This document shows, in pieces, positions 4,415 to 50,398 of a stretch of DNA of 64,000 nt. This DNA is from Siphonodentalium dalli (taxonomy: Eukaryota > Mollusca > Scaphopoda > Gadilida > Siphonodentaliidae): the NCBI GenBank assembly GCA_032622095.1, contig CP136061.1, positions 87,164,983 to 87,228,982 on the forward strand, read 5' to 3'. Position 1 is the first letter of the stretch. Each line of letters begins with the position of its first letter. The position numbers and the translations under genes are program-made. The notes beneath the pieces were generated by a model. That model ran no database searches and was not told the origin of the DNA. It was given only the letters and a program-made list of their open reading frames with translations.

Positions 4415-4830
4415 TTTGGGCTCCCAAAATACATCTAATAATATCGGTTTTTGAATTTTTCCCGGTATCGAAATAGGTCCATATATACTCGAACTAGTAA
4501 CTTTCGATGAGCATTATACGTCACAGAAAGACGCACTGACGTCATAAACAAAATACACCTTTAACACGATGTTTGGTAAACAAAACAAAAACTGCCATTT
4601 GCATGGAACAGAAAAAAAATGGTTCCGTGTTAGGATATTCCTGATATGGTAGAAATAAAGAGAGTTTGTTTACAATTGAAAATGCTGGAACATGGCTGTG
4701 ACCATGGATACAGGACATACGAAGCCGTTATTTAAATAATTAGTGTATTTGTCAACAAATGTCACACATTCCAAATTACGTAGACATAATTTAGAAGCTC
4801 GAATGAGCCATGTCCGTTCAATGCTTTTGG
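4415..4830 (+). repeat. dispersed repeat B, copy 1
   Basis: Matches about 7510-7944 in direct orientation and about 6838-7215 in inverted orientation. Shared landmarks are the CCCAAAATACATCTAATA-like start, AAAGACGCACTGA(C/A)GTCATA, CTGATATGGTAGAAATAAAG and TTTAGAAGCTCGAATGAG. It has no coding assignment. Confidence 0.7.
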
Positions 4831-16772: not shown

Positions 16773-17172
16773 TTAACCCTTTACCCAACAAACCGGCCAA
16801 AACCGGCCAAATAAAGCTTCAACAGCCTAAAATATCTTCGGTCTGTCTCAATAGAACCATACAAATATGGATATCATTGGAACCGGCTCCTTGACCACAT
16901 TGTGATAGTTACAGTTATGCCCTGTGCCAATGCATTCTCTTATATATGCGAGTCGACCATAGGTCGCCTCGCATATATAAGAGAATGCATTGGCCTAAAA
17001 AAAATCTTTTTTTAACACTTTTTACCATTTTTTCTTACATTCTTTAACAATTTTATAATTTTTAATGTGTTAAGCCAATGCATTCTCTTATATATGCGAG
17101 GCGACCTATGGTCGACTCGCATATATAAGAGAATGCATTGGCACAGGGCCGTTCTGTTGGGTAAAGGGTTAA
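16773..17172. mobile_element. piggyBac-type MITE, copy 3 (full length)
   Basis: A 400-bp element with TTAA at both ends and CCCTTTACCCAACA inverted ends. The left 69-bp hairpin is at 16926-16994 and the right at 17074-17142, in opposite orientation. The whole element is thus a palindrome of hairpins. It appears to be the least damaged copy. Short open frames inside are mirror-image artefacts of the inverted structure. Confidence 0.85.
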
Positions 17173-17369
17173 TAAAGAGTATATACCGTTATGTATTAGG
17201 AAGTTGTCATTTTCGCAGTCTTGGTCTAATAGAACGAATCCAGAAAAAGTCGTTATATGTATAAAACAATTTAACATTGTCAATTTTAAAATATTTTAAT
17301 TCTCGCTGTGTTAGTTGTTGCAAACATATCTATTCACTGGCAAAATTTACAACTTTCGTAAACTTCTTC

Positions 17370-17769
17370 TTAACCCTTTACCCAACAAACCGGCCAAAAC
17401 CGGCCAAATAAAGCTTCAACAGCCTAAAATATCTTCGGTCTGTCTCAATAGAACCATACAAATATGGATATCATTGGAACCGGCTCCTTGACCACATTGT
17501 GATAGTTACAGTTATGCCCTGTGCCAATGCATTCTCTTATATATGCGAGTCGACCATAGGTCGCCTCGCATATATAAGAGAATGCATTGGCCTAAAAAAA
17601 ATCTTTTTTTAACACTTTTTACCATTTTTTCTTACATTCTTTAACAATTTTATAATTTTTAATGTGTTAAGCCAATGCATTCTCTTATATATGCGAGGCG
17701 ACCTATGGTCGACTCGCATATATAAGAGAATGCATTGGCACAGGGCCGTTCTGTTGGGTAAAGGGTTAA
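17370..17769. mobile_element. piggyBac-type MITE, copy 4
   Basis: Apparently identical to copy 3, carried in the second unit of the 597-bp tandem duplication. Hairpins are at 17523-17591 and 17671-17739. Confidence 0.85.
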
Positions 17770-17970
17770 TAAAGAGTATATACCGTTATGTATTAGGAAG
17801 TTGTCATTTTCGCAGTCTTGGTCTAATAGAACGAATCCAGAAAAAGTCGTTATATGTATAAAACAATTTAACATTGTCAATTTTAAAATATTTTAATTCT
17901 CGCTGTGTTAGTTGTTGCAAACATATCTATTCACTGGCGAAATTTACAACTTTCGTAAACTTCTTCTTAA

Positions 17971-18189
17971 CAACATATGTTTGGCCAATCAATTCAGTAA
18001 GACCAAACCGCACTATGCAAATCAGCATGGCTACGTAACCGGTGGTAATATTATTATGTATGTCATTACGGCGTAATGTCGTTCGTGATATATAGTTGTG
18101 TGTTACGAATGACAATTATTTCATGTTTTATTTAATCTGGTATGATATTATGACAGATTTATTCTCAATTTGTTTGGGTCATCTTTAAG
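17971..18189. other. intergenic spacer, nothing recognised
   Basis: Short AT-rich spacer between the TTAA duplication and the 33-bp array. No feature seen. Confidence 0.4.
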
Positions 18190-19147
18190 TTGTTTTCAGC
18201 TAATCTGCACAATCCCGCGAACCACTGCATAGCTAATCGTATAACAACACATGCACAAATGTATACGGCGAATCATCAATATATGTAAGCCATGCACCAC
18301 TGCATAACTAATCCATATAACACCGCGAACCACTGCAAGATAATCCGTATAACCCCGCAACCACTGCATAACTAGTTCGCATAACCACACGAACCAGTAT
18401 ATAGCTAATCCGTACAACACCGCAACCACTGTATAACTAGTTCGCATAACCACACGAACCACTACATAGCTAATCCCACATGAACCACCACATATGTAAT
18501 CCGTATAACCACATGCATGCACAACTGTATACGACGAATCAACAATACATGTAACCACATGCATGCACCACTCCATGTCTAATCTGCATAACCGCACGAA
18601 CCACTGTTATTGCCAATCATTAATCTATGTAACTAATTGCACCACCGTACAGTTAACCCATATAACCATGTGCACAACAACACGAACCATTGCACTGTTA
18701 ATCCATAGAATAACTGTAACCACCGCACAGCCAAATCGTATAACCACACGGACCACATCACTGTTAATCCGTATAACCACACGCACCACTGCACAGCTAA
18801 TCCATATAACAAGAATAACCACTGCGCAGCTAAATCATATAACCACACGGACCACATCACTGTTAATCCGTATAACCCCATGAACCACTGCACAGCTAAT
18901 CCATATAACAACAGTAAACACTGCACTGCTTCAACGAATAACCACATGATACACCGCACAGCTGATGCATATTTCCGTATGCACCACCTCATAGCTAATA
19001 TGTATTTTCGCATGAACAACCCCACAGCTAATATGTATTTCCACCTGCACCACTTCACGGCGGATACATATAACCACGCGAAAAAATGAACTGCTAATCG
19101 GTATATCCACACAAACCACCGACCATCTAATCTATGTAACCACATTA
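18190..19147. repeat. degenerate 33-bp minisatellite
   Basis: About 28 diverged units of the type AACCACTGCATAGCTAATCC plus (G/A)TATAACCACACG, with period about 33 bp. Long open frames on both strands here come from a repeat length divisible by three and are not genes. The last 277 bp are included in the large direct repeat A and reappear at 28139-28415. Confidence 0.85.
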
Positions 19148-19726
19148 CTGTGGAGAGGGGGTTATTGGTTGGCAGACCCCTTAGTAGTTGTGGTAGATGT
19201 CCACAGGTATTATTCCCTGTGTCCTCACATTCACATCTGATAAAGGATTGGTATATCCATATCATCAATTCAATAAACAACTTCAATGTCGACTCGTGTA
19301 TTTATGATCGCCAAAGTCCAAGTCCAAATTCTTATCAACACTGCACCTTAGTTACTTTGATAACAACGGTATTACGTAAACACCGCTTAGGTTGTGGTAT
19401 TTGTGTTAGACTGGTAATAAAATTAGGCGATGATAGAACATATCAGAATCGTCTTCATTCTGAGTCCAAGACCAAATAAAGTGATGATTTACACCAAATA
19501 GTGAAATCAGGTTATAAATTGTACGATAAAATGCTCTAAAAATAATCTAAATGAACGACGATTTACACCAATTAATTAGATCAGTAAATGGGAGTATTTA
19601 CCATGATTCCTAATATGGAATTGTAAATACATAGCCGTTGTTTAGACATATCTCAATGACAGTCTTTAAATGTTTACTGCATGCTTATACGCGAGAATAC
19701 GGTGTCGCGGCTGTCTTGGATTAAAC

Positions 19727-20095
19727 CAGCCCCGTTCCGTGATTTCAGAGATTAATCCAGCCCCGTTCCGTGGTTTCTGAGATTCATCCAGCCCCGTTCC
19801 GTGGTTTCAGAGATTCACACAGCCCCGTTCCGTGGTTTCAGAGATTAATCCAGCCCCGTTCCGTGGTTTCAGAGATTAATCCAGCCCTGTTCCGCGGTTT
19901 CAGAGATTAATCCAGCCCGTTCCGTGGTTTCAGAGATTAATCCAGCCCCGTTCCGTGGTTTCAGAGATTAATCCAGACCCGTTCCGTGGTGTCAGAGATT
20001 AATCCAGCACCGTTCCGTCGTTTCAGAGATTAATCCAGCCCCGTTCCGTGGTTTCAGTGATTGATCCAGCCCCGTTCCGTGGTTTCAGAGATTAA
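19727..20095. repeat. 31-bp minisatellite in left copy of A
   Basis: About 12 units of AGCCCCGTTCCGTGGTTTCA plus GAGATTAATCC, with single-base variants. The array is GC-richer than its surroundings. Units abut without spacers, so this is not a CRISPR. Confidence 0.92.
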
Positions 20096-20300
20096 TGATG
20101 GCAATGACGGTACCGATGGTGATGATGACGGGGATGACGACGGAGGTTGCGACGACTACAGCGACGACGACTAACATGATGCCGATGATGCTGACGATGC
20201 TACTGATGATTGACGATGCTCATGACGCGATGATGATGATGATGACGACGACCATGACGACGACAAGGACGACGACGACGACGACGATGATGGTTTTCTT
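20090..20300. repeat. GAT/GAC trinucleotide-rich tract
   Basis: Imperfect GATGAC/GACGAC repeats directly follow the 31-bp array. Open frames through it encode only Met/Thr- or Asp-rich low-complexity peptides. Confidence 0.85.
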
Positions 20301-20582
20301 AGACTTATGATTTTGAATGGACCAGTTTCTGCGCCGCAGTAAATAACTTAACATCCATTGCGGCACATATGTATATATGTTTCCTTGTATATATGTTCAT
20401 GTTTACACTCTAATTTTGTACTGTGTTGTGCTATTGGGTATTAAATCAATCATATTAAATCAAAGGCTAATTTAGGGCAAATTACATTGTAGTTGTTTAA
20501 CAACTTAATGAATGCATATAGATCTCGCTGCGCATGTATATTAACACCCCTGGTTATGGGGAGACGTATATATGTTACAGTA

Positions 20583-20709
20583 AATCAGTGAAATTAGTAA
20601 TTATGCGAAAACCCTGAATCGTTTAGTAAATTCATGAAATCCCTGATCTGAGTAGGAATTTAATGGAACTACTAGAAAATTCAGGGATTTCGCGTAATTA
20701 CTGATTTTA
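20583..20709. repeat. short fold-back
   Basis: AAATCAGTGAAATTAGTAAT then TATGCGAAAACCCTGAAT on the left is answered by ATTCAGGGATTTCGCG then TAATTACTGATTTT on the right. An 8-bp insertion in the left arm breaks the symmetry. A copy exists in the right repeat A at +9268. Confidence 0.65.
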
Positions 20710-21029
20710 GGCGCCAGGGATTTCATGAAATTACTGAAGGACAACCAAGTTAAAGTTTTATTATTTTTATTGCAAACAAGTTATGGAATACATAGAAATT
20801 ATAGTCATATTACAAACACAATCAACATTTATAAGATGTTTGATGCTAAGATAAATCATCATCAATGTTCCAGTAACAAATTTAGTTTACAGAAAGAAAT
20901 AGGCAAAATGTTTCCACTGAAAAGGTTTTTCTCAACGGCCGGGTTGAACCTTTTTGTCGACAAAAACAGAAGCACGAATGCTTTTCACTTAGCTCAATAC
21001 AAATTCATCATCTACTTGTTTTTACATGT

Positions 21030-21520
21030 TAGGCTATTGTGACATCGTGAATTACATTTTAATTGAGCCTTGAAACATTTTCATTTGGCTGTCGTGCATG
21101 TCCCCTTACAGTTACATTTCTTAAATCCTTGACCACCTGTTGCAGATTGCTCCCTGACTGCAGAGCGTAGAGGGAGAATCATTGTTTGGCAGATGTGATC
21201 GGTAGTCAAAAGTCTCTCCGGGCACAAATCAAATTGGTTGCGAGAATACTTTTCGCTCAGAATGCCTGATTTGACAGCGATTGTGTATAAGTCTCTGTCG
21301 AGGTTCATGTCGACAACTCCAAAAATCCAGCAAAAAAAAATGGCAAGAGATTTTCAAGAAAGAATTTCTCTGGGTCTATCTGGCGAAAATCTTGAATGTC
21401 ACAAAACATCATCTTCATTGAGTAATCATTGGATACATTTGAGAGGTTGAAATTATTATCTTTTTTGTCACCTTATCTCCAATCAGCAAATAGCTTATTG
21501 TCTTGGCTCCAGGAGCGTAG
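21030..21520 (-). pseudogene. integrase-associated cysteine-rich protein remnant (KRBA2-like), left copy
   Basis: Read right to left, the minus strand encodes DMNLDRDLYTIAVKSGIL, RNQFDLCPERLL, TGGQGFKKCNCKGTC and, past one stop codon, KCFKAQLKCNSRCHNS. The order Cys-x-Cys-x3-Cys, Cys-x-Cys, Cys-x3-Cys-His matches, from memory, the C-terminal region of proteins annotated as KRAB-A domain-containing protein 2-like or integrase core proteins in invertebrates, which derive from retroelements. A TGA (21081-21083) sits exactly where a conserved cysteine codon is expected, a one-base change from TGT or TGC. Upstream frames (21310-21520) are broken, and no integrase catalytic core is seen. It is therefore a dead fragment. 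The same sequence lies at 30298-30788. Confidence 0.5.
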
Positions 21521-22833
21521 GCTTCGTTCCCCGAGTGGGTGGGTATCCAGAGGCCAAAACAAGTGTTCTCCTAGGTCATGCAACTTTTATCCAAATACAA
21601 TATTTTACTTTGTTTCTATTTAAACAACTTGCAGGTGTTTTAGTCTTCTCTAATGACTAGAAATGACGCATTAAAAATAGTCTTCACCCCCTCATATAGA
21701 TGATAACATTGGTAAAATTCACTGAGAACTAATGTTGAAAGGGGGTCTTTCTGTGAACGGAACACAATTCCATATGTAAAAAATGTTTTCGATCAAGATA
21801 TGTACACAAAATAAGGTTATTTTCTGGTTATTTCTCCCATAACTATCAGCAAACATGTCGCAACGATGCTTGCTATATGCAGGCCGATACAACTGTAAGG
21901 GCAGGAGTATAATGTTAATAGCACAGCCAGACGACCAGTTAACAGTTACCGATTCATGCGAAGAAAGGGTTACATTTGGAATTGCACTGCTCTGTGATGG
22001 TGGGTTTGGACAAGGTCCCTTAACATAAGCACGCAAAAGCAACGGAACCCCAAAGGAAATCCTTTTGTTTCTTTGTTTTGTTTTTTTTTAGATATTTGAA
22101 TCAGTAACTTTCAACAATCGGTGCTATTATAAGATTATGCCAGGACAAGAGAGAAGCTTATATATTTATAGAAAGCATGAATTAGTCTAAATTTCTGTAA
22201 ATTGAGCAGATATAATCGTCATTAAAACAGTGAATTTGCCATTCTTAGTATTTCTTTGTTTGGAATTAAACAGGAAGTCACAATAATTGCGGTTAATAAA
22301 AACACCTGGTTGGAATAGGAGGCGGTCGTTTAAATTGGACCGAATTTGGAGATGGATTGGGTGGGTGTCAAAAATTTGATGGATAAAATTACACGGAAGT
22401 GTGGATGGGTCCCAAAATTCGGGGGAAAAAAATCAACCTTGTGTATGAACTTTTATCCGCTCCCCTCATAGACCGCTACCCTCATATATTATAATGCAGA
22501 ATAAAGCAGTCACAAATATTCCAGCCCAATGAAAACAAATGTTGATATGCAGTATATGGTCTACTCAAGTAGTGAGCAATCAAATGGAATCAGGCCACAG
22601 TGGTCAGCTTTAACTTTGTCAGGAACCTATATGCCCCAGAACTCATCTCAGCCCAATTTTCCACCACTGATAATTAAATTCCACAATTAAGAATAATTAG
22701 GTCTCCTCTCATGATCTTCAGATATAATATCACGGATATATGAACTTTACTTTAAAAACATATATTTTTTAAACAGAAGTTCTTGGTACCTGAAAACAAT
22801 GAAATTTTAAATACTTTTTACCTCAAAGCTGAT

Positions 22834-23433
22834 ATGCAAAGTTTCGTCGGCCATATATATGGCGAACTCAACAAATTCGCCCACTTGACATGGAACACAA
22901 TCCACGCTAACCGATCGCAAAACCCAATTGATACAAGAGGATACCCACAATCGCCGTCAGTTAGCCATGCAGACATTCAGCTGGTTGGTATTAGCAAGCA
23001 CCCATCTTCACCCATACCTAGTGCTTCAAAATTCAACCCGCAGGAAACGTCTACACCAAGTTCTTCTCACGTTAAACGCACAGATAAAGAGCCAAAAAAC
23101 ACACCACTTGACAAGAAGAATAACTCTATTAACTATGCGCGTCACGCTAATCATGACACGCACGTTGACAACCAACAATCCAATTATGACCTCCGTGATA
23201 TTCCTGTGGATGATTGTGACGACACCCACCACGATTCCGCAGAAGACACTCGACACTCCAATAAACGGAGCCACCTGCAATCAGAGAAGCCTGGTGCTAA
23301 CGATGATCATTCAAACCACAACAGACGCCCTTCGCGAAATAACTACTCATCGAACAACGCATCCTTTTCCAGGTTCTATCAAAAGTCAAACGACGGCCCT
23401 ATTAGACATCGCGTGTGTTCCTCGGTAACCTAG
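22834..23433 (+). pseudogene. LINE ORF1, 5' portion (frame-disrupted)
   Basis: The frame starting MQSFVGHIYGELNK runs 199 codons to a TAG at 23431. It encodes a hydrophilic, Asp/His/Asn/Ser-rich chain of the low-complexity kind seen in the N-terminal half of many LINE ORF1 proteins, which bind the element RNA. It ends just after the point where the conserved ORF1 C-terminal domain begins in another frame (23406 onward). The two open frames overlap by about 28 bp, so either an indel broke ORF1 or a -1 frameshift joins them. I saw no convincing slippery heptamer, so a mutation is the simpler reading. Confidence 0.55.
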
Positions 23434-23726
23434 ATGTTAAAGTCGATGCATATGTGCTTTCTGATTATCTGGATGAATTTGAAGTGCGTCACTCAGTTGT
23501 TCGAATCCTGCAAGGTGGAAGAGCTGACGGTCCTGTGTCAGCCAGAATAAATATTCATGTGGATGATGTTGATGAAGTACTCAGGAAAGGTTTCTGGCCT
23601 ATTGCCGTATTATGTAGACCTTGGCTGTCCAAACGTTCCTTTGACGATAGACGTGACAATAACTACCATAACACAACTGAGGATATACGTGGGAAACATC
23701 AATACCAACGACAACAACAACAATAA
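23406..23726 (+). pseudogene. LINE ORF1, C-terminal domain
   Basis: An open frame containing VFLGNLDVKVDAYVLSDYL and, about 60 residues later, GFWPIAVLCRPW. A (V/I)FxGxL strand, then a helix, then a terminal FWPxxVxxRPW/RRF motif is the usual layout of the ORF1 C-terminal domain in CR1-, I- and Jockey-like LINEs. There is no in-frame ATG at the start, since the frame opens after a TAG at 23403. It therefore depends on the upstream frame for translation, or is dead. It is followed by a Gln/Asn-rich tail and a stop at 23724-23726. Confidence 0.55.
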
Positions 23727-23802
23727 AATCAACTCGCATAGCAACAAATCAAATACCAAATCTTGTGCCTGCTTATGCATTTGAACCTTGAATCGCTCAA
23801 CC

Positions 23803-26800
23803 ATGTTACACGTATTACGTAATTATGCTGGTGAATCTAGCGCTTGCCACTGTTTGTGCAACTTATTGATAATTTTCATAATGTTGTTGAATATTTGCAC
23901 ATGGAACGCTACTGGGATTTTCGGTAGCAGTTCCTACCTCTCGAGCCTTCTCGCACAGGAAAATGTTGGTGTAATTGGAGTGAGTGAGCATTGGCTCTGG
24001 GAGCACAATTCTCATTTTCTCAACACATTACACCAAAATTATCGCTACCATATAGTGTGTGACTATTCACAAAGAATACCGTTACAAATGAGAAGGGCGG
24101 GAAGGCCGAAAGGCGGAGTTGCCATTATATGGCATGCTAGTTTGGACAGTGCCGTTTCAGTCATCCAATACGACGACGATCGCATTTGTGGCATTCAAAT
24201 ACAGATATCAGAATCACAGTATGTATACATCTTTCAGGTGTACCTCCCTTCCAGCAATTACCCAGTCACAATGTATAGAGACTATATAAATCGTGTGCAA
24301 GACCTTATCGATATGTACACAGAAATAGGGCACGTCATTGTAATGGGTGACTTTAACGGCAGTGTACAGAGATCGGATGCCAGAAATAGAAGTTTATCCA
24401 AACTTATCTCACAAAAATCACTGGTGTCTGTCAACAATACTGACGCTTGTATTGGGCCTTCTGCGACATACGTACCCACCGATGGTGGACCAGGTACCAT
24501 GATAGACCACATCCTCATTCCCGAGGAAGAATCGTACCTAGTACAGAAAATCGAAATCATCGACGACGATTCACTGGATGTCTCTAATCATAGGCCAATT
24601 AAAATGGTCATAAATTACCCACATAATAATAAAATGGGTCGCTCAGAAAACCAAATTTCAGCATGCAATTGGAAAAAGTTCACTGCCTCGGAAGACTTAA
24701 TCAATGCTTATCAAACCGCCGTGCAGGACAGTCTTCCGAACTTTGCCATATCTGACATCGATGATCTCGATTCGTACTACGATTCTGTTGTTAGTGCGAT
24801 AAACAAAGCTACAACGCAGCACATACCAAAAAAGTCTTTCAAATCTTTCGCCAAACCGTATTGGAACGACTCTTTGGAATCACTCCACTGCGAAATGCGC
24901 AATACTAGAAATAGATGGCTAGAAGAAGGGAGACCGAGAGGTATTGTAAATATCAGCTACGGCAACTATAAAGAAGCTAAACGCAAATTTCGCCGCGAAC
25001 TTCGCAAATGTAATGGGCAATACATGTCTGCTCAAAATGAACAAATTGATAATTCAGCTGAGTTAGACCAGGGTCTCTTTTTCAAGCTCTTTAACAACAA
25101 AAGATCGAAATCAAAACCGGATAGTAAATTATTCAATGTAAATGGCAAAATAATCCGGAATACGTCGGACATCACCGCTGCATGGGCAGATTACTATGAA
25201 CAACTATATTCACCTCTACAATCGCCCACTTTCGATTCAGAACATCTGGAGAAGATACAACTTTTGATTGCAGATATTTCTGAACATAAGTCACCTTCTA
25301 AAGTAGACCAATCTCTCATTTATGAGATATCACACAGAGAGCTCAATAACGCTATTAGTAATGCCAAAAAGGGGAAAGCCCCAGGTCCCGACCGCATATG
25401 CTATGAGCATGTGGTACATGGTGGCGATACATTGCTCAACTGCACAGCATACATGCTGTCTATGATGTTGAAACTCAGACATGTTCCAAAAATGGCCAAG
25501 ACGGGATTAATGATTTCCTTGCATAAGGGTGGAGACAAACCAAAGAACAAGTTCGATAGCTACAGAGCAATTACACTCTTACCCATATTCTATAAGCTCC
25601 TGGAAAAGGTTCTGCTCAATCGCTTCGAAATTAATACACCATATCTCGTTAAAGTTCACCCCCTTCAGAACGGGTTCCAGAAAGAAATAAGTTGCTTAAT
25701 GTCATCATATGTTGTTAGCGAATGCATCAATTACACATCAGAGCAGAATAGTAAGCTGTATGCATGTTTCCTAGATGTCCGTAAAGCCTTTGATACTGTG
25801 TGGTTAGACGGCCTATTGATCAAACTTTACAATCGTGGTTTCCGTGGACATATATGGTTCATACTACGGGAGATGTTGTCGGGCTTTTCGTGCTTCGTCA
25901 ATTATGGTAAATCAATGTCAAGGGAAATCAAAATACTACAAGGGACGCGACAAGGGGGAATTTTATCCCCTCTTTTATACATGTTGTATATAGATGATCT
26001 GTTATATGAACTCGAGGCATCGAACTATGGTCTTCGGATTGTCTCCACAAACTGCGCGTCGCCAACTCAAGCGGATGATATGACGCTCTTTTCGCTCACA
26101 AACGTGGGCCTACAACGCCTCTGTGATATTTGCACAATGTATAGCCGATTGTGGCGGTTTACATACAACGCACAGAAATGTAAAACCATTGTATTCAATG
26201 AAAAAGTGAAGAATCTGCCTGTGCATCCAAGGAGATGGAAACTTGGTGACGGGTATGTAGACGAAACTGATCACATAACCCATCTTGGCATAACGTTGCA
26301 TAGAAGCGACTTCGCTCGTGAGTTCATCGACTGTATTGTCAACAAAATAAGATCCACCTACTTCATGCTGAGCAATGCTGGTATGTATGCAGGTGGAATC
26401 ACCCCTCAAAGTTGCGAAACTCTTTACAGATCCATAATTATTCCAAAGGGTCTATACGGATCTGAACTATTGTGTGGTCTATCAGAAACCCATTGGTCAA
26501 CTCTTGAGAAAATTCATCGCTTCTGCCTCAAGCATATCCAGGGACTTCCTGTACGTGCTCGCACTGATATCGTTTTGGGGATGCTTGGCATCCATCCTAT
26601 CAAGTCATTGATTGATGCCAGGAAACTCAATTTGTTTGGAAGCCTATGCCGTATGCCTCCTGGCAAAGCTTGCAAGGAAATTTTTGTCACAAGACTTCAC
26701 ATGTACTTCACGGGACAACTGGAAAACCCAAATTCCTTCATCAGCGACATTAACAACACTCTTGTTGAATACAACCTATCCGAGCATATGCATCAGTATG

Positions 26801-27375
26801 CTCATTTCTGCTCATTTCCTCTGAAATCCGAATGGAAACGCATTACAAAAACCGCGATTAACGACAAATGCGTACAGAAATGGACAGAGAGAACAAATTG
26901 TGACACTTCATTTGCGCGTTTTCGAGAAATTCAACCAAACCCTACTATGTGTCACTTATGGAGAACATGTCGTAAATACCCTATGCATAAGATTGCATTT
27001 ATCACAGTCGGTCAGCTCATCGCAGGAAGCGCATTCTCTCAACAAAACACATGCACATTATGCTGTCAGTCACACTCTGATATTATCGAGCACGCACTTA
27101 TCTCATGCAGTAGCCCACTTATGCATTCCCACAGAAACGAAATGTGGTACCAGATGATTGATCGTTTCGGCATACCGCTATTCGTATGGGCCACGAGTCT
27201 CAGCAACAGCGACCTCGTATTGCTCCATCTCACACATCTTCCACGTGATATATTCACATTTCTTGAGCAAGTTGAGGATACATCAAAGTTTACGAGATTC
27301 ATTGTTCTTCACACAAACTTAATTTGGAGGCGCTATGTCGAACTCTCAGCCACTACGCATGACGGTTTGTGTTAA
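23803..27375 (+). CDS. LINE ORF2: APE endonuclease and reverse transcriptase
   Basis: It encodes the enzyme that nicks target DNA and copies the LINE RNA by target-primed reverse transcription. The frame is 1,190 codons from the ATG at 23803. A second ATG at 23881 directly precedes the endonuclease start LLNICTWNATG and may be the real one. Endonuclease motifs, numbered from 23803: SEHWL near residue 62, MGDFN at 182-186 and SNHRP at 261-265. Most relatives have SDHxP at the last site, so an Asn replaces the usual Asp. Reverse-transcriptase motifs: GKAPGPD near 524, FLDVRKAFDTV near 657, TRQGGILSP near 715 and QADDMTLF near 755, so the catalytic aspartates are present. The C-terminus has CTLCCQSHSDIIEHALISC near 1084, a Cys/His motif usual in this group. 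No internal stop or frameshift was seen, so the enzyme is potentially active apart from the endonuclease substitution. Confidence 0.92.
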   Translation: MLHVLRNYAGESSACHCLCNLLIIFIMLLNICTWNATGIFGSSSYLSSLLAQENVGVIGVSEHWLWEHNSHFLNTLHQNYRYHIVCDYSQRIPLQMRRAGRPKGGVAIIWHASLDSAVSVIQYDDDRICGIQIQISESQYVYIFQVYLPSSNYPVTMYRDYINRVQDLIDMYTEIGHVIVMGDFNGSVQRSDARNRSLSKLISQKSLVSVNNTDACIGPSATYVPTDGGPGTMIDHILIPEEESYLVQKIEIIDDDSLDVSNHRPIKMVINYPHNNKMGRSENQISACNWKKFTASEDLINAYQTAVQDSLPNFAISDIDDLDSYYDSVVSAINKATTQHIPKKSFKSFAKPYWNDSLESLHCEMRNTRNRWLEEGRPRGIVNISYGNYKEAKRKFRRELRKCNGQYMSAQNEQIDNSAELDQGLFFKLFNNKRSKSKPDSKLFNVNGKIIRNTSDITAAWADYYEQLYSPLQSPTFDSEHLEKIQLLIADISEHKSPSKVDQSLIYEISHRELNNAISNAKKGKAPGPDRICYEHVVHGGDTLLNCTAYMLSMMLKLRHVPKMAKTGLMISLHKGGDKPKNKFDSYRAITLLPIFYKLLEKVLLNRFEINTPYLVKVHPLQNGFQKEISCLMSSYVVSECINYTSEQNSKLYACFLDVRKAFDTVWLDGLLIKLYNRGFRGHIWFILREMLSGFSCFVNYGKSMSREIKILQGTRQGGILSPLLYMLYIDDLLYELEASNYGLRIVSTNCASPTQADDMTLFSLTNVGLQRLCDICTMYSRLWRFTYNAQKCKTIVFNEKVKNLPVHPRRWKLGDGYVDETDHITHLGITLHRSDFAREFIDCIVNKIRSTYFMLSNAGMYAGGITPQSCETLYRSIIIPKGLYGSELLCGLSETHWSTLEKIHRFCLKHIQGLPVRARTDIVLGMLGIHPIKSLIDARKLNLFGSLCRMPPGKACKEIFVTRLHMYFTGQLENPNSFISDINNTLVEYNLSEHMHQYAHFCSFPLKSEWKRITKTAINDKCVQKWTERTNCDTSFARFREIQPNPTMCHLWRTCRKYPMHKIAFITVGQLIAGSAFSQQNTCTLCCQSHSDIIEHALISCSSPLMHSHRNEMWYQMIDRFGIPLFVWATSLSNSDLVLLHLTHLPRDIFTFLEQVEDTSKFTRFIVLHTNLIWRRYVELSATTHDGLC

Positions 27376-27568
27376 ACAACCTTTGATCTTTGAAGTTTGA
27401 ACGTTACGGGTGTTCACCATAAGTCGTACTTAAATGTACCACATTCTGTCCTGTCCATAAAACCGAAGACGACAAATTAAATAAACATGAATAAATTAAT
27501 AAATCATTATATATATATGTATGCATAGGTATGTGTATATGAGGGTGTGATGGTGTGTGTGTGTGTGT

Positions 27569-27626
<58 letters not shown>

Positions 27627-28138
27627 GTGTATACGTGTGTGTATATGTTTTCTTGCGCTAGCGTTTGCACTGTCGCAACATCATCCTACATATAGTCTAT
27701 TCCACTTAATGGGTGCATACATTTATAGGGGAGCTATTGTCGAGCAAGGGCATTGCGTTTGCTGACTCTTTGGGGAGAGAGATTCTTCTAAGCGAATCCA
27801 ACTCCAACTAGAGTTCCTTTTGTAATTGTATGCACCTGCTTATGGTGTGCTGTTGTGACAGTGCATCATAACGTATGTATGTACGGTTGTGTTTGTGTCT
27901 GCGCCATGTGTTAGATTGTATATGCGTACGGGTGTGGTCGAGAGGGTGTGTGTTTTCTGTTGATGTGATATGTAAGCTCGTGTTCGTGTACATACAATTA
28001 GAATGGTATTCTTTTCCTCGGTAGTTTGTTCTCTTGTCTGTCTTTTCATTACTTCTTGATTGCTAAATGTATTTATGTTACATTCATGTATACTATGTCT
28101 TGTTAAATCTTCAATACTGGAGGCAATAAAGATATATA
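27376..28138 (+). other. LINE 3' UTR with TG microsatellite and AT tail
   Basis: Non-coding. A GT/TG dinucleotide tract with a few interruptions lies at about 27548-27622 (a minus-strand open frame here encodes only Thr-His repeats). The end is CTGGAGGCAATAAAGATATA and TATATA, where AATAAA resembles a polyadenylation signal and the ATATAT run forms the short repeated tail typical of several LINE clades. Confidence 0.8.
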
Positions 28139-28994
28139 TATAACCCCATGAACCACTGCACAGCTAATCCATATAACAACAGTAAACACTGCACTGCTTC
28201 AACGAATAACCACATGATACACCGCACAGCTGATGCATATTTCCGTATGCACCACCTCATAGCTAATATGTATTTTCGCATGAACAACCCCACAGCTAAT
28301 ATGTATTTCCACCTGCACCACTTCACGGCGGATACATATAACCACGCGAAAAAATGAACTGCTAATCGGTATATCCACACAAACCACCGACCATCTAATC
28401 TATGTAACCACATTACTGTGGAGAGGGGGTTATTGGTTGGCAGACCCCTTAGTAGTTGTGGTAGATGTCCACAGGTATTATTCCCTGTGTCCTCACATTC
28501 ACATCTGATAAAGGATTGGTATATCCATATCATCAATTCAATAAACAACTTCAATGTCGACTCGTGTATTTATGATCGCCAAAGTCCAAGTCCAAATTCT
28601 TATCAACACTGCACCTTAGTTACTTTGATAACAACGGTATTACGTAAACACCGCTTAGGTTGTGGTATTTGTGTTAGACTGGTAATAAAATTAGGCGATG
28701 ATAGAACATATCAGAATCGTCTTCATTCTGAGTCCAAGACCAAATAAAGTGATGATTTACACCAAATAGTGAAATCAGGTTATAAATTGTACGATAAAAT
28801 GCTCTAAAAATAATCTAAATGAACGACGATTTACACCAATTAATTAGATCAGTAAATGGGAGTATTTACCATGATTCCTAATATGGAATTGTAAATACAT
28901 AGCCGTTGTTTAGACATATCTCAATGACAGTCTTTAAATGTTTACTGCATGCTTATACGCGAGAATACGGTGTCGCGGCTGTCTTGGATTAAAC

Positions 28995-29568
28995 CAGCCC
29001 CGTTCCGTGATTTCAGAGATTAATCCAGCCCCGTTCCGTGGTTTCTGAGATTCATCCAGCCCCGTTCCGTGGTTTCAGAGATTCACACAGCCCCGTTCCG
29101 TGGTTTCAGAGATTAATCCAGCCCCGTTCCGTGGTTTCAGAGATTAATCCAGCCCTGTTCCGCGGTTTCAGAGATTAATCCAGCCCGTTCCGTGGTTTCA
29201 GAGATTAATCCAGCCCCGTTCCGTGGTTTCAGAGATTAATCCAGACCCGTTCCGTGGTGTCAGAGATTAATCCAGCACCGTTCCGTCGTTTCAGAGATTA
29301 ATCCAGCCCCGTTCCGTGGTTTCAGTGATTGATCCAGCCCCGTTCCGTGGTTTCAGAGATTAATGATGGCAATGACGGTACCGATGGTGATGATGACGGG
29401 GATGACGACGGAGGTTGCGACGACTACAGCGACGACGACTAACATGATGCCGATGATGCTGACGATGCTACTGATGATTGACGATGCTCATGACGCGATG
29501 ATGATGATGATGACGACGACCATGACGACGACAAGGACGACGACGACGACGACGATGATGGTTTTCTT
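28995..29568. repeat. 31-bp minisatellite and GAT/GAC tract, right copy
   Basis: Exact counterpart of 19727-20300. Unit variants such as AGCCCTGTTCCGCGG and AGACCCGTTCCGTGGTG occur in the same order in both copies, which shows they were copied together rather than evolving in parallel. Confidence 0.9.
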
Positions 29569-30297
29569 AGACTTATGATTTTGAATGGACCAGTTTCTGC
29601 GCCGCAGTAAATAACTTAACATCCATTGCGGCACATATGTATATATGTTTCCTTGTATATATGTTCATGTTTACACTCTAATTTTGTACTGTGTTGTGCT
29701 ATTGGGTATTAAATCAATCATATTAAATCAAAGGCTAATTTAGGGCAAATTACATTGTAGTTGTTTAACAACTTAATGAATGCATATAGATCTCGCTGCG
29801 CATGTATATTAACACCCCTGGTTATGGGGAGACGTATATATGTTACAGTAAATCAGTGAAATTAGTAATTATGCGAAAACCCTGAATCGTTTAGTAAATT
29901 CATGAAATCCCTGATCTGAGTAGGAATTTAATGGAACTACTAGAAAATTCAGGGATTTCGCGTAATTACTGATTTTAGGCGCCAGGGATTTCATGAAATT
30001 ACTGAAGGACAACCAAGTTAAAGTTTTATTATTTTTATTGCAAACAAGTTATGGAATACATAGAAATTATAGTCATATTACAAACACAATCAACATTTAT
30101 AAGATGTTTGATGCTAAGATAAATCATCATCAATGTTCCAGTAACAAATTTAGTTTACAGAAAGAAATAGGCAAAATGTTTCCACTGAAAAGGTTTTTCT
30201 CAACGGCCGGGTTGAACCTTTTTGTCGACAAAAACAGAAGCACGAATGCTTTTCACTTAGCTCAATACAAATTCATCATCTACTTGTTTTTACATGT

Positions 30298-30788
30298 TAG
30301 GCTATTGTGACATCGTGAATTACATTTTAATTGAGCCTTGAAACATTTTCATTTGGCTGTCGTGCATGTCCCCTTACAGTTACATTTCTTAAATCCTTGA
30401 CCACCTGTTGCAGATTGCTCCCTGACTGCAGAGCGTAGAGGGAGAATCATTGTTTGGCAGATGTGATCGGTAGTCAAAAGTCTCTCCGGGCACAAATCAA
30501 ATTGGTTGCGAGAATACTTTTCGCTCAGAATGCCTGATTTGACAGCGATTGTGTATAAGTCTCTGTCGAGGTTCATGTCGACAACTCCAAAAATCCAGCA
30601 AAAAAAAATGGCAAGAGATTTTCAAGAAAGAATTTCTCTGGGTCTATCTGGCGAAAATCTTGAATGTCACAAAACATCATCTTCATTGAGTAATCATTGG
30701 ATACATTTGAGAGGTTGAAATTATTATCTTTTTTGTCACCTTATCTCCAATCAGCAAATAGCTTATTGTCTTGGCTCCAGGAGCGTAG
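30298..30788 (-). pseudogene. KRBA2-like cysteine-rich remnant, right copy
   Basis: Same sequence as 21030-21520, including the TGA in place of a conserved cysteine codon (at 30349-30351). The stop therefore predates the duplication. Confidence 0.5.
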
Positions 30789-32087
30789 GCTTCGTTCCCC
30801 GAGTGGGTGGGTATCCAGAGGCCAAAACAAGTGTTCTCCTAGGTCATGCAACTTTTATCCAAATACAATATTTTACTTTGTTTCTATTTAAACAACTTGC
30901 AGGTGTTTTAGTCTTCTCTAATGACTAGAAATGACGCATTAAAAATAGTCTTCACCCCCTCATATAGATGATAACATTGGTAAAATTCACTGAGAACTAA
31001 TGTTGAAAGGGGGTCTTTCTGTGAACGGAACACAATTCCATATGTAAAAAATGTTTTCGATCAAGATATGTACACAAAATAAGGTTATTTTCTGGTTATT
31101 TCTCCCATAACTATCAGCAAACATGTCGCAACGATGCTTGCTATATGCAGGCCGATACAACTGTAAGGGCAGGAGTATAATGTTAATAGCACAGCCAGAC
31201 GACCAGTTAACAGTTACCGATTCATGCGAAGAAAGGGTTACATTTGGAATTGCACTGCTCTGTGATGGTGGGTTTGGACAAGGTCCCTTAACATAAGCAC
31301 GCAAAAGCAACGGAACCCCAAAGGAAATCCTTTTGTTTCTTTGTTTTGTTTTTTTTTAGATATTTGAATCAGTAACTTTCAACAATCGGTGCTATTATAA
31401 GATTATGCCAGGACAAGAGAGAAGCTTATATATTTATAGAAAGCATGAATTAGTCTAAATTTCTGTAAATTGAGCAGATATAATCGTCATTAAAACAGTG
31501 AATTTGCCATTCTTAGTATTTCTTTGTTTGGAATTAAACAGGAAGTCACAATAATTGCGGTTAATAAAAACACCTGGTTGGAATAGGAGGCGGTCGTTTA
31601 AATTGGACCGAATTTGGAGATGGATTGGGTGGGTGTCAAAAATTTGATGGATAAAATTACACGGAAGTGTGGATGGGTCCCAAAATTCGGGGGAAAAAAA
31701 TCAACCTTGTGTATGAACTTTTATCCGCTCCCCTCATAGACCGCTACCCTCATATATTATAATGCAGAATAAAGCAGTCACAAATATTCCAGCCCAATGA
31801 AAACAAATGTTGATATGCAGTATATGGTCTACTCAAGTAGTGAGCAATCAAATGGAATCAGGCCACAGTGGTCAGCTTTAACTTTGTCAGGAACCTATAT
31901 GCCCCAGAACTCATCTCAGCCCAATTTTCCACCACTGATAATTAAATTCCACAATTAAGAATAATTAGGTCTCCTCTCATGATCTTCAGATATAATATCA
32001 CGGATATATGAACTTTACTTTAAAAACATATATTTTTTAAACAGAAGTTCTTGGTACCTGAAAACAATGAAATTTTAAATACTTTTT

Positions 32088-32635
32088 CATGCCATAAAAG
32101 TTAAGTAAATTAGGTTATAATACCAAATGGGTCGATGGTTCTTAAATACTGTGTCACAATATTAGCTTGTACCAAATTTCACAAAGAAATTCCTGACAGA
32201 TTATGAGAAAATCCATTAAATTTTGGCAAAACGTGCGTCTGACAATTAAATTGTCCTGTTAATATGCTATGATGTTCGTTGGTGCTGTTGTGTTCCTATG
32301 AGACTGGTAGGCCACAGCGATGCTGGTAAGAAAAGGTTATTTTTCCAAAATCCAGTGTCTGTATGAAACATGCAACAAAAATATTAATCTATTTTGGTGC
32401 CTCTCCACATTTTATGCCACTGACCCCGACATCGTCACTTTAGACATTTTTAACCTGCACCATTTTCTTCCTCATGAACAGTTTCACCCCAGTTAGACCA
32501 ATTTTGAGCACTGTAGATGGTTTCCATGTACTTAATGTCTGTAGCTGAGAGACATGCAAACAGACAGACAATCGCACATATAGATATATAAGTAGGATTG
32601 CTGAAATATCTAGAGTTTTGAGATATGATGGTTAT
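32088..32635. other. intergenic, nothing recognised
   Basis: Unique sequence downstream of repeat A. It should be the original right flank of the LINE target. No gene seen. Confidence 0.45.
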
Positions 32636-32760
32636 TATTTGAATTGAATTGAATTGCTTTATTTCACTCAATCATATAAATTGTATGAGATACAGAGTGA
32701 AAAACGTATATACAGAACTATGTACACAATGTTAGTATGGCCGTTGCGTTTGGCGTTCGA
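32636..32760 (-). mobile_element. possible minus-strand LINE/SINE 3' end
   Basis: Read on the minus strand, TGAGTGAAATAAAGCAATTC is followed by repeated AATTC units, i.e. an AATAAA-like signal followed by a pentanucleotide tail. The plus-strand element ending at 10508 has the comparable AATTG tail. The 5' limit is not visible. Confidence 0.4.
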
Positions 32761-32788
32761 TGTCCGTAAGTGTCATTCGTCGTGTTCT

Positions 32789-32886
32789 ACGTCATCATCA
32801 TCATCATCATCACCATCATCATCATCGTCATCTTCAGCAACAACATCCTCATCATCATCATCGTCATCATCGTCATCATCATCATC

Positions 32887-32917
<31 letters not shown>

Positions 32918-32940
32918 CCATCACCATCACCATCATCATT
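32789..32940. repeat. CAT/ATC trinucleotide microsatellite
   Basis: Long run of ATC with CGTC and CAACA interruptions. It produces apparent Ser-, His- and Ile-rich (+) and Met-rich (-) open frames, none of them real genes. Confidence 0.95.
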
Positions 32941-34108
32941 TGGTGCAATGATATACGCACAAGAGGTGCTGAATCAAGCTTCCTTTTACACATGGGCATC
33001 ATTTTCTGCAAGAATTATTACGGAATCATATACGGATAGGTTTCTCCGCCCGTCATGCAACCCTATCACTTCGTACCATCTTGGGGCACATCAATTTGTA
33101 ATTTATATCACAAATGGCGTTGCAATTAGGTGATTTTAGGCACAGGCCAATTCAATTAGTAGCCTTTTTCATCTCTGAAATGATGAATTATTCATTATTC
33201 CTACCAAAGCCACCGACATCGCGCGAGGTTTTACTAACGCAAGACGCAATCCCAGAAGCGTGCAAAATGCGATAAACGTTCGCTAAGACGTTACTAAGAG
33301 AAGAGGGCCCCCAGGAGAAATCCCATGGAATTGTTACTGACAAGGAATTTAGTTCGATAGAATACTTCGTATGACTTCCTTCCATTATCCACTTGCATTA
33401 ATTTGTATTTATGAATAGAATTATTGAGCGCTGTGAGTGAAGCCAATAATTTAATGCGTTTGTTTTGTTACATTACATTAGACTGACAAAGGCACCCGGA
33501 TTTCCTCATACGTGTTGGGGGCTCAACATGGGGCTTAACAGAACACGGATCAATTTACGTTCTATCATCACACGGATATCAAACGTTCAGCTAACAAAAA
33601 TCTCGATTTCCACGTCTCTGTAAAACGCTTATAGAGTTAATGGGCCGGGTAAACAGACCGGAAATTGCCTTAACCGGTCGATCGATTATACAGACATGTC
33701 GTTGGATCCATCATTTTGATCGCAGTGCCACAGTGTCGCATCCAAAATATGACATGTCACGACACTTTGACAGAGGAGCACGCGCCATGAGATGAGAAAT
33801 ACCTCTAGAGATTAGGAATGGGTTTCATGACAGCACTTGTTATGAATCATAAATGTCCGCGATGCTTGAGTGGACTGACACATGGACCTGTTGAATGGCT
33901 CAAAGTGCCAAACATGACATTGTATATAACTTGGTCATGAACCCATGACACTGAACTCACCTCAGCCCAATATTTCATTGATCAACAGGCATGACATAGA
34001 AATTCTCAAATATAGAACATTATTTATGGGAAGTTGCCTTTCTAAATGAAAATAATCATTAATCATTAAAGACAGACAGACATTCAGACAGACAGACATT
34101 CGAACATA
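32941..34108. other. intergenic, nothing recognised
   Basis: No gene identified. Short GACA-rich runs occur at 34070-34100. No other repeat was recognised. Confidence 0.45.
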
Positions 34109-34324
34109 TACAGTAATGCCCTAAGTAATCGACCCCTTAACCACAGCATAATTATGGGTAACTTTTCAGGATTAGTCGGAAATATGGCTTGTTGTCATGC
34201 GTCGGAAAGCTCTCAGTGAGAGCTTTCCGATGAATGGCAACAAGCCATATTTCCGACTAAATCCTGAAAAGTTACCCATAATTCTGCTGTGGTTAAGGAG
34301 TCGATTACTTAGGGCATTACTGTA
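34109..34324. mobile_element. mariner-like fold-back MITE
   Basis: Almost the whole 216 bp is one inverted repeat. It starts TACAGTAATGCCCTAAGTAA and ends in the complement CTTAGGGCATTACTGTA, with arms of about 95 bp and a tip at about 34205-34225. TA at each edge and a CAGT start match Tc1/mariner ends and target. No ORF. Confidence 0.85.
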
Positions 34325-34690
34325 GATATAGAAGCAGGATTGCTGAAATATCTAGAATTTGGAGATACACGTTCTCAAAGTGCCAACATAACATTCTATA
34401 TAATTATATGATCGCAAGTTGAAGTGTCGTGGTGGTTTTAATCCTGAAATTAAGTTTCTTTCCTGGTCCTTATCCGGCTCCGGGATCACAATGGACTTAC
34501 AAGAATACTAACGACCAAGAACAGTTTATGCGGAGGATTATCACCGAACAGTTGATACCGAGGATTATCACTGCACATTTTAATTATTATGTCAACGGCA
34601 TTGGAAGAATGATTAACTTACTTACAAAAAGGACACACGGCGCTACACTTTTTAGTGTTTTTCAGAAAAGAAAAATTCAATAAATAGAGG
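34325..34690. other. intergenic, nothing recognised
   Basis: No gene or repeat family recognised; an 84-codon open frame at 34429-34683 has no domain resemblance. Confidence 0.4.
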
Positions 34691-49562: not shown

Positions 49563-50398
49563 TCACTGCAGAAACTTTGCCAAGAGTCCAAGACTCTCCA
49601 CTATTCGAGGAAAGCAACTGAGTTATATTCAAAGACTGTTTTAAGAAACCTCATATCATCTGGAACGGAAATATGGCTACAGGCAACCGAAATTCAGTGT
49701 CCCCAAATGTGAACTTTCACAAAATTAGCCTCACGTCAGAACCGAAATGCGTCTAAATTAATTCATTAGTGTCCATAATTACCACAAGGACCTAAAATAC
49801 CGTGACTTGTGTGTTTCTAAGAGCACGAGAAGAATAGCCGAGTAACGCAGCGAAAGCTGTTAATTTCTGCCTCGAGGTAGAATATGGCTTTACGCATCGA
49901 TTTTAATTCTAATGCTCGACTAAAAGCGAAGAAGCCACGCAATTACCACGGAGTTCCCTTAATGCGGCCTATCGGGAAATTCTCTGCATATTCGATGCAG
50001 ATAATGGGCGGAGACCGCCTCCATCGCGTAACACCAATTGGAAATGTACGAAGCCATTGGCTTTTACCAAACATTACAGAGCCGCTCACGATCAGCACTT
50101 CCAGTAAAGCCATTTGTATTAAATCTCAGCTTTACGGCATCTCACTGCGAAGAGTTCACTTTTGGGATATCAATAATCCACAATAGAGCACGGATTCGGA
50201 GTTACATTGCTTCGAGCGATCCGAAGAAAGAAGACACATTTCACGGTGAATAACAAATCTAATATAATACTAGGGTTCACAATGTTTTCTGTTTGATATA
50301 ACTGTTCTATATTAATTTGAAATAACTCCCAACTAACTTTCTCAATTTTGTATTTTCAGATAAAATTCACGGGACAGAGAGAATAACCAACTTGCAAA
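49563..50398 (+). promoter_or_regulatory. protocadherin upstream region and 3' splice site
   Basis: At 50331-50359 the sequence CCAACTAACTTTCTCAATTT then TGTATTTTCAG is an excellent branch point (CTAAC), pyrimidine tract and AG acceptor. The coding exon thus probably starts at 50360, with 39 bp of 5' UTR before the ATG at 50399. A 5' UTR exon must lie upstream. The GC-richer segment at about 49880-50245 is a candidate, with a possible GT donor at about 50243-50248 (CACGGTGAAT). No TATA box was assigned. Confidence 0.55.

Follow-up and report, generated by a model that had tools for sequence, protein, structure and literature searches.

The window, by which we mean the whole stretch of 64,000 nucleotides analysed, contains a LINE copy enclosed by two copies of one segment, A, in the order X-A-LINE-A-Y. 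The initial annotation described the flanks as apparently identical direct repeats of ~3.95 kb, and self-comparison of the window confirmed this: 18871-22819 and 28139-32087 align with 0 differences in 3,949 bases and no gaps, and no other self-match in the window comes near this pair in length. The left A stops at 22819 and the LINE runs from 22820, while the LINE tail ends at 28138 and the right copy starts at 28139. The unit variants of an embedded 31-bp array had been noted as common to both copies, and the two arrays are indeed the same and lie within A. The features of the locus are as follows.

17765-18870, no strand: X, the upstream flank, which runs directly into A in a paralogous segment on C5
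18871-22819, no strand: A, left copy of the proposed 3,949-bp target-site duplication, identical to 28139-32087 and single in the C5 paralogue
18871-18874, plus strand: TATA at the X/A boundary, which shares homology with the (TA)n tail of the LINE and is the proposed site of the first nick; the C5 paralogue has CCGTATAACCCC (junction table)
19719-20096, plus strand: 31-bp tandem array of 12.2 units in the left A (repeat scan)
22820-28138, plus strand: LINE copy lacking ~1,545 bp at its 5′ end; other copies reach further 5′ and begin TGGGCTGATTTACTG
23785-27375, plus strand: ORF2, a stop-to-stop frame of 1,196 codons with endonuclease and reverse transcriptase (ORF and domain analysis)
27553-27642, plus strand: (GT)n stretch within the 3′ UTR of the LINE (repeat scan)
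28132-28138, plus strand: LINE 3′ tail, (AT)n/(TA)n, whose length differs among copies (copy comparison)
28139-32087, no strand: A, right copy of the proposed target-site duplication, identical to the left copy
28987-29364, plus strand: 31-bp tandem array in the right A (repeat scan)
32088-34500, no strand: Y, the downstream flank, which runs on from A in the C5 paralogue (34500 is the end of the query)

A plain tandem duplication also lies in the window, at 16773-17971. A search of 251,371 bases, comprising the window and loci of at least 4 kb, for gapped direct repeats that reach 200 bp and 97% identity and lie outside tandem arrays gave the A/A pair and no other; being unique of its kind, the pair cannot have arisen by chance. 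The enclosed element belongs to the LINE class. Its ORF2, a single open frame, combines an AP-type endonuclease (PF03372) with a reverse transcriptase (PF00078), there are no LTRs, and among the copies the start points vary, the 3′ end is constant and the tail is (TA)n. As annotated, A abuts the element at 22820 and 28138, but 22820 is not the true LINE start, as full-length copies extend ~1,545 bp further. The last 499 bp are common to at least 40 copies at a displayed identity of 100%, and copies are dispersed across all nine contigs; a first scan gave 301 candidate copies of the family. The window LINE is thus a 5′-truncated member of a very young family.

The paralogous segment on C5, ~93-98% identical, contains A once and no LINE, with the X/A and A/Y boundaries unbroken; compared with the window, its A holds ~1.5 kb of additional GAT-rich sequence. 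The initial annotation had called for a search for alleles with A once and no LINE. That arrangement exists, in a paralogue and not an allele, and judging from its sequence it serves as a proxy for the empty site. Since the C5 segment has the flanking repeat but no LINE, the repeats represent target DNA rather than LTRs. The annotated TATA overlap between the LINE tail and the start of A is present, at 18871-18874 and again at 28139-28142, and since the paralogue has TATA too, these bases were part of the original target.

We then scored 30 near-identical family copies for flanking direct repeats, the flanks of copies without a repeat being read over 4.5-10 kb. Repeats of at least 420 bp flank 13 of the 30. 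Eleven were followed to their far end and measure 420-3,949 bp (median 1,351 bp; besides the window's, 3,563, 2,800, 1,550, 1,459, 1,351, 1,219, 788, 722, 449, and 420 bp), all separated from the 5′ end of the LINE by 0-24 bp; the other two, at C3:245.55 and C2:217.8, were seen in part. Short duplications of 8-98 bp occur in six copies, one copy is ambiguous, and ten have no flanking repeat in the 4.5-10 kb examined. A duplication is therefore present in 19/30 (three of ~8-15 bp, one of 25 bp, two of 65-98 bp, and 13 of at least 420 bp), with a median of 722 bp over the 17 comprising the 11 long ones followed to the end and the six short ones. Seven copies were left out of this count: C7:68.69, C9:162.4, and C3:126.3, whose junctions were unsettled, C4:153.8, whose 3′ end was not found, and three related copies of 94-95% identity (C3:289.9, C1:56.98, and C9:129.5), none of which had a repeat in ~4.4 kb of 3′ flank. 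The first six truncated copies, read with short flanks (261-874 bp 5′ and 732-926 bp 3′), yielded one 98-bp repeat and nothing in the other five. When the 3′ flanks were extended to 10 kb, a reach used for five copies only, three of the five negatives proved to have repeats of 1.5-3.6 kb. Repeat partners were also sought by whole-genome search, in which 40 candidates at most were scored per search, so that positives are usable and absence is unreliable: the 449-bp partner of C9:127.36, seen in its flank, is absent among the whole-genome matches listed. Long duplications are common in this family, not universal, and the kilobase duplication is a habit of the family rather than a single event, which the initial annotation had not anticipated.

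The sister insertions bear on three other ways of arriving at X-A-LINE-A-Y. If A were single in the animal and had been written twice around a heterozygous or badly assembled LINE, the exact identity of the two copies would follow, and mixing of haplotypes could imitate small differences within repeat pairs. Several family pairs are nevertheless diverged (1/788, 3/903, and 5/419 bases; with gaps, one mismatch and four gap positions in 878, and two and five in 726, the latter flanking a LINE copy that has drifted to ~99%), as is a pair from a control family at 96.5%, and an artefact leaves unexplained why the A/LINE joint falls at the LINE terminus and why this recurs at 13 loci. For these reasons we consider the assembly artefact raised in the initial annotation improbable. 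Also raised there was unequal exchange within two LINEs inserted ~4 kb apart on different haplotypes. Formally the topology is the same, but two nearby insertions and an exchange would be required at each of the 13 loci, and a perfect match over all 3,949 bases is not what one would expect of A copies that come from different haplotypes, which leaves this route with a negligible share of the probability. Equally far-fetched is a LINE landing at the joint of an A-A tandem duplication formed earlier, or frequent here. Plain tandem duplications do exist, as at 16773-17971, and the LINE copy at C6:35.48 sits inside a 4.4-kb array; the gap of 0-24 bp between repeat and LINE in the long repeats followed to their far end would however demand repeated chance landings, which is not credible.

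As controls we read 18 truncated copies of two other LINE families (10 of K1 and eight of K2), with flanks of ~400 bp 5′ and ~1.5 kb 3′. Similarity between their ORF2 and the one in the window LINE is confined to ~350 residues, at ~25%. One copy (C4:145.35) has a repeat of 96.5% over 402 bp, implying a duplication of ~1.05 kb, and another (C2:170.8) an 8-bp duplication; C7:202.3 and C4:154.17 lie in tandem repeats, repeats are weak or displaced at C2:7.72, C6:49.28, and C1:196.7, and the remaining eleven showed nothing clear within these flanks. Within 1.5 kb the tally is 9/30 for the window family (two extrapolated) against 1/18 for the controls, which were read shallowly (Fisher P 0.067), a difference that is not decisive as to whether the habit is specific to this family. 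Four 9-kb regions, two from each control family, left the 5′ ends unsettled.

Taken together, A is very probably the target-site duplication of this LINE insertion, made by target-primed reverse transcription with a second-strand break up to kilobases downstream. The initial annotation had listed target-primed reverse transcription with wide breaks and LINE-mediated tandem duplication, and the single A on C5 and the 13/30 sister insertions support them; the two options describe one kind of event. The family shows ordinary LINE signatures, namely 5′ truncation, a variable (TA)n tail, and microhomology at the 5′ joint. YATAA stands at the first-nick site or within four bases of it in 5/8 copies (junction table), and microhomology of 1-6 bp is found at the 5′ joint in 6/7 truncated copies joined without filler, the window LINE having none; this points to first nicks at sites resembling TATAA and to 5′ joints that carry microhomology or a short filler. 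In the model that we propose, the element endonuclease would nick the lower strand at the TATAA-like site of the X/A boundary; at this nick the LINE RNA would pair through its (UA)n tail and cDNA synthesis would start. The break in the upper strand would lie at the A/Y boundary, 3,949 bp downstream instead of 10-20 bp. The cDNA, ~1,545 bp short of full length, would be joined to this distant end, and strand-displacement synthesis over 3.9 kb would leave A on either side of the LINE.

For the second break, given that the LINE made the duplication, we lean towards a distant nick on the same duplex. The other candidate, with distinctly less weight on the same premise, is a broken sister chromatid: the LINE cDNA would be joined in a replication-coupled manner to a broken chromatid end downstream, and the LINE would then mark the joint of a tandem duplication. 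This is a sub-case of the reading favoured here. Such joining has been proposed, in a study on human tumours, for L1-bounded megabase tandem duplications (PMC7058536). It accords with the broad range of sizes, from 8 bp to 3.9 kb, and with one control LINE copy whose 5′ flank recurs 21 kb downstream, but the 11 measured long repeats all fall within 0.4-4 kb (flanks of up to 10 kb were read for five copies only), and among all the explanations weighed we regard it as rather unlikely. Sister-chromatid joining and a distal nick on the same duplex give an identical sequence outcome.

Target-site duplications of LINEs are typically ~5-20 bp, and our literature searches listed no LINE family that makes such long ones habitually. 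The R9 elements of bdelloid rotifers reportedly have a 126-bp target duplication, exceptionally long for a LINE; they are specific to rDNA and the length is fixed. Unlike R9, the present family has sites dispersed over nine contigs and lengths of ~8-3,949 bp, up to ~30 times longer. In wild-type chicken DT40 cells, a 1,228-bp duplication arose in 1/25 insertions of zebrafish ZfL2-2 and the other 24 changes were of 20 bp or less (PMC2666801). The kilobase outcome thus exists there, rarely; duplications of at least 420 bp (13/30 here vs 1/25) differ at Fisher P 0.0013, a comparison across different elements and hosts (PMC2666801). The tumour L1 events likewise have a LINE where the two units of a direct tandem duplication meet, but they are rare and very large (22.6 Mb in one example), whereas those here are of 0.4-4 kb and frequent within the family (PMC7058536).

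In size the duplications resemble those of human L1 in cells that lack nucleotide-excision repair (NER), being XPA-, XPC-, or XPD-deficient: these measure 5 bp-5.3 kb, and their median of 1,495 bp falls to 14 bp once the cells are complemented, for which the authors propose the use of a distal unrelated nick (PMC5223499). Both sets span a few bp to several kb, and the median exceeds 1 kb there and among the 11 long ones here (1,351 bp; 722 bp with the six short ones included), although that study used an engineered L1 in cultured repair-deficient cells, and the duplications here are fixed in an assembly and made by a LINE of another lineage (PMC5223499). The host also appears to differ: the genome keeps a predicted XPA_C domain (79.9 bits), and at XPA, the sole NER gene tested, host NER loss as a simple cause is not supported.

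Second-strand cutting and finishing is the least understood half of the LINE life cycle, and a natural, very recently active family with many insertions whose second break lies 0.4-4 kb away gives a rich collection of end products for study. The family also links LINE activity with how tandem segmental duplications arise, and annotation looking only for repeats of 5-30 bp would miss the true insertion boundaries. We suggest, tentatively and with the balance somewhat against it, that duplicating kilobases is a normal result of LINE insertion in the germline here, and that what determines it is how the host treats the second strand, not one element. If so, the animal would parallel in nature the repair-deficient human cell line, among the copies that show no repeat there would be even longer duplications as well as deletions, and active LINEs would routinely make tandem segmental duplications of their targets, enlarging and reshuffling the genome.

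The LINE in the window lies between two direct copies of a 3,949-bp sequence, A, so that, with the upstream flank X and the downstream flank Y, the order is X-A-LINE-A-Y. The initial annotation had called the copies apparently identical, and when we compared the window with itself they differed at 0 of 3,949 positions. Both adjoin the LINE directly, with zero intervening bases on either side, and the TATA microhomology proposed between the tail of the element and the beginning of A was indeed present, as the sole overlap at the LINE/A joints. Across the window and the retrieved loci of at least 4 kb, together 251,371 bases, the two A copies form the sole gapped direct-repeat pair that reaches 200 bp and 97% identity; every other pair detected was a tandem array or consisted of tandem copies that overlap. 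The window contains the following features:

16773-17374 and 17370-17971, 602-bp tandem duplication, 99.8%, copies without intervening sequence
18871-22819, left copy of A
20567-21318, within left A, dispersed repeat of ~750 bp with dozens of genomic matches elsewhere
22820-28138, LINE
28139-32087, right copy of A
50387-52912, + strand, 841-codon open frame, protocadherin-like, encoding six cadherin repeats (PF00028, 298.9 bits), which points to an animal genome

The LINE encodes an ORF2 with endonuclease and reverse-transcriptase domains within a 1,196-codon frame. Longer copies of the family start ~1,545 bp further upstream (TGGGCTGATTTACTG), therefore the window copy is 5′-truncated. Its last 499 bp matched at 100% in all 40 scored matches displayed (40 scored of 301 first-look candidates), and by this sequence identity the family is very young. 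Two near-identical copies lie on the same strand 22.9 kb apart (C2:172159748 and C2:172182615; contig and position), possibly an even longer duplication containing the LINE.

To survey sister copies we picked 37 from search listings, their flanks not being known beforehand: 36 of the 40 loci of one listing (C1:163.5, C4:33.6, C6:132.8, and C4:114.7, in Mb, were left out) plus C5:15.5. Thirty close copies (98–100%), the window included, were scored; both flanks were read for 27, while at C1:61.77, C4:289.5, and C6:35.48 we read the 5′ flank and found the downstream copy by searching. Of the seven others, three related copies (94–95%) showed no repeat in ~4.4 kb and four were unscorable. Direct repeats of at least 420 bp were present at 13 of the 30, and 11 of these were traced to their far end, at the LINE 5′ end, with lengths of 3,949 (window), 3,563, 2,800, 1,550, 1,459, 1,351, 1,219, 788, 722, 449, and 420 bp (median 1,351 bp; the values 1,351 and 1,219 are supported by a correctly placed 150-base match). 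Both repeat ends were read at the window, C5:19.70, C6:92.91, and C1:160.04. The other two are C3:245.55, whose first 903 bp were seen (~1.4 kb if extending to the LINE), and C2:217.8, seen as a 138-bp colinear match with an implied length of ~1,023 bp. Six copies carried short duplications (98, 65, 25, ~15, ~10, and ~8 bp, the last two by eye at the junction), and ten had no repeat in the 3′ flank read, which covered 10 kb at C2:18.97 and C5:81.79 and ~4.5–5 kb at the other eight. The last, C6:35.48, is ambiguous, as the LINE is inserted in a tandem array of ~4.4-kb units; this array spans C6:35.457–35.498 Mb with spacings near 4,419 (5′ side in locus L071).

A false assembly join, which is unlikely, would have to produce the same junction type at 13 loci. 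Nor are all the repeat pairs identical: we counted 1 difference in 788 at C6:92.91, 3 in 903 at C3:245.55, and 5 in 419 at C5:19.70. The C3:158.75 pair had 1 mismatch plus 4 gap positions over 878, and the C1:160.04 pair 2 mismatches plus 5 gap positions over 726; the LINE at C1:160.04 is itself down to ~99%. Such small differences could, however, also stem from haplotype mixing.

The assembly (2.23 Gb, 9 contigs; the window is C1:87164983-87228982) also contains a diverged duplicate of the LINE neighborhood at C5:235.148–235.159 Mb. Identity to the window is 95.6% in X (97.9% across 467 bases around X/A), 92.9–96.7% in pieces of A, 94.1% over the end of A and a stretch of Y, and 98.3% further into Y. 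The C5 segment has a single A without the LINE, and both boundaries are intact, X/A (TTAATCCGTATAACCCCATG) and A/Y (TTTTCATGCC); its A holds ~1.5 kb of additional, mostly GAT-rich sequence beside a trinucleotide run. The unit of the 602-bp tandem duplication is apparently single there. The comparison supports X-A-Y as the probable ancestral order. An allele with A once and no LINE had been suggested as a search target; that arrangement does occur, but in a paralogue rather than a segregating allele. With no differences between them, the window A copies arose long after the C1/C5 duplication.

YATAA lay at, or at most 4 bases from, the first-nick site in five of the eight copies with the left duplication start read (a raw count, with no background expectation), which fits pairing of a (UA)n RNA tail with the cut strand, that is, ordinary target-primed reverse transcription. 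The 5′ joints of seven truncated copies had 0–6 bp of microhomology with the target (0 in the window; the largest, TATCGC, at C5:230.16). Filler of 3–27 bp was present in an eighth truncated copy, C8:2.7, and in four full-length copies whose end had been measured. At C3:211.84 part of the LINE 5′ end is repeated within the filler, suggestive of a polymerase jump. In loci L062, L048, and L050, filler of 8–27 bp ending in AAT precedes the full-length 5′ end, in L062 with a partial 5′-end repeat. Judged from first-nick sites and 5′ joints, the reaction appears to begin in the usual way, with its second-strand break lying far off: the (UA)n tail would pair with the cut strand, reverse transcription would start, and the second strand would break far from the first nick. 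The proposal of target-primed reverse transcription with widely separated nicks is supported as regards a normal first half and a distant break; that break may be a nick made later in the same duplex or a broken sister chromatid, two routes with the same sequence outcome.

Is this a property of the element or of the host? We read 1.5-kb 3′ flanks of 18 truncated copies of two control LINE families, K1 and K2, whose ORF2 aligned with that of the window LINE over ~350 residues only (~25%). One K1 copy (C4:145.35) had a repeat at 96.5%, implied length ~1.05 kb; one K2 copy had an 8-bp duplication; two copies were within tandem repeats; three (C2:7.72, C6:49.28, C1:196.7) had weak or displaced repeats; and eleven showed nothing clear in these flanks. 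At equal depth, repeats were found in 9/30 family copies versus 1/18 controls (P 0.067), the control reading being shallow. The control families also suggest, tentatively, that LINEs in this genome as a whole rarely make short duplications. Among 14 control flank pieces searched, the 5′ flank of one K1 copy, C9:103.42, recurs ~21 kb downstream of the 3′ end (C9:103.398 and C9:103.423 Mb; 100% over 105 bp; 5′ side in L120). Another control 5′ flank occurs four times at C5:176.299–176.315 Mb, a tandem array with ~5.15-kb spacing. As for the host, an XPA_C domain is present in the genome, therefore complete loss of nucleotide-excision repair (NER) is not the simple answer; XPA was the NER gene examined.

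L1 duplications in NER-deficient human cells range from 5 bp to 5.3 kb (median 1,495 bp, versus 14 bp in complemented cells), and a distal unrelated nick was proposed (PMC5223499); a 22.6-Mb tandem duplication bounded by L1 was given a sister-chromatid model (PMC7058536). Duplications in DT40 were 15 bp for L1 and 5 bp for ZfL2-1 (PMC4245944). One of 25 wild-type ZfL2-2 insertions had a 1,228-bp duplication, and long deletions occurred in 5/25 in Ku70-deficient cells (PMC2666801); such deletions are a possible source of the repeat-less family copies. In the portion of the open-licence literature searched, no naturally occurring LINE family turned up that habitually makes duplications of kilobase size. 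The window shows one instance of what this family does repeatedly: its LINE produced a target-site duplication of kilobase length. Relative to that literature, such size and frequency seem to be without precedent for a natural family.
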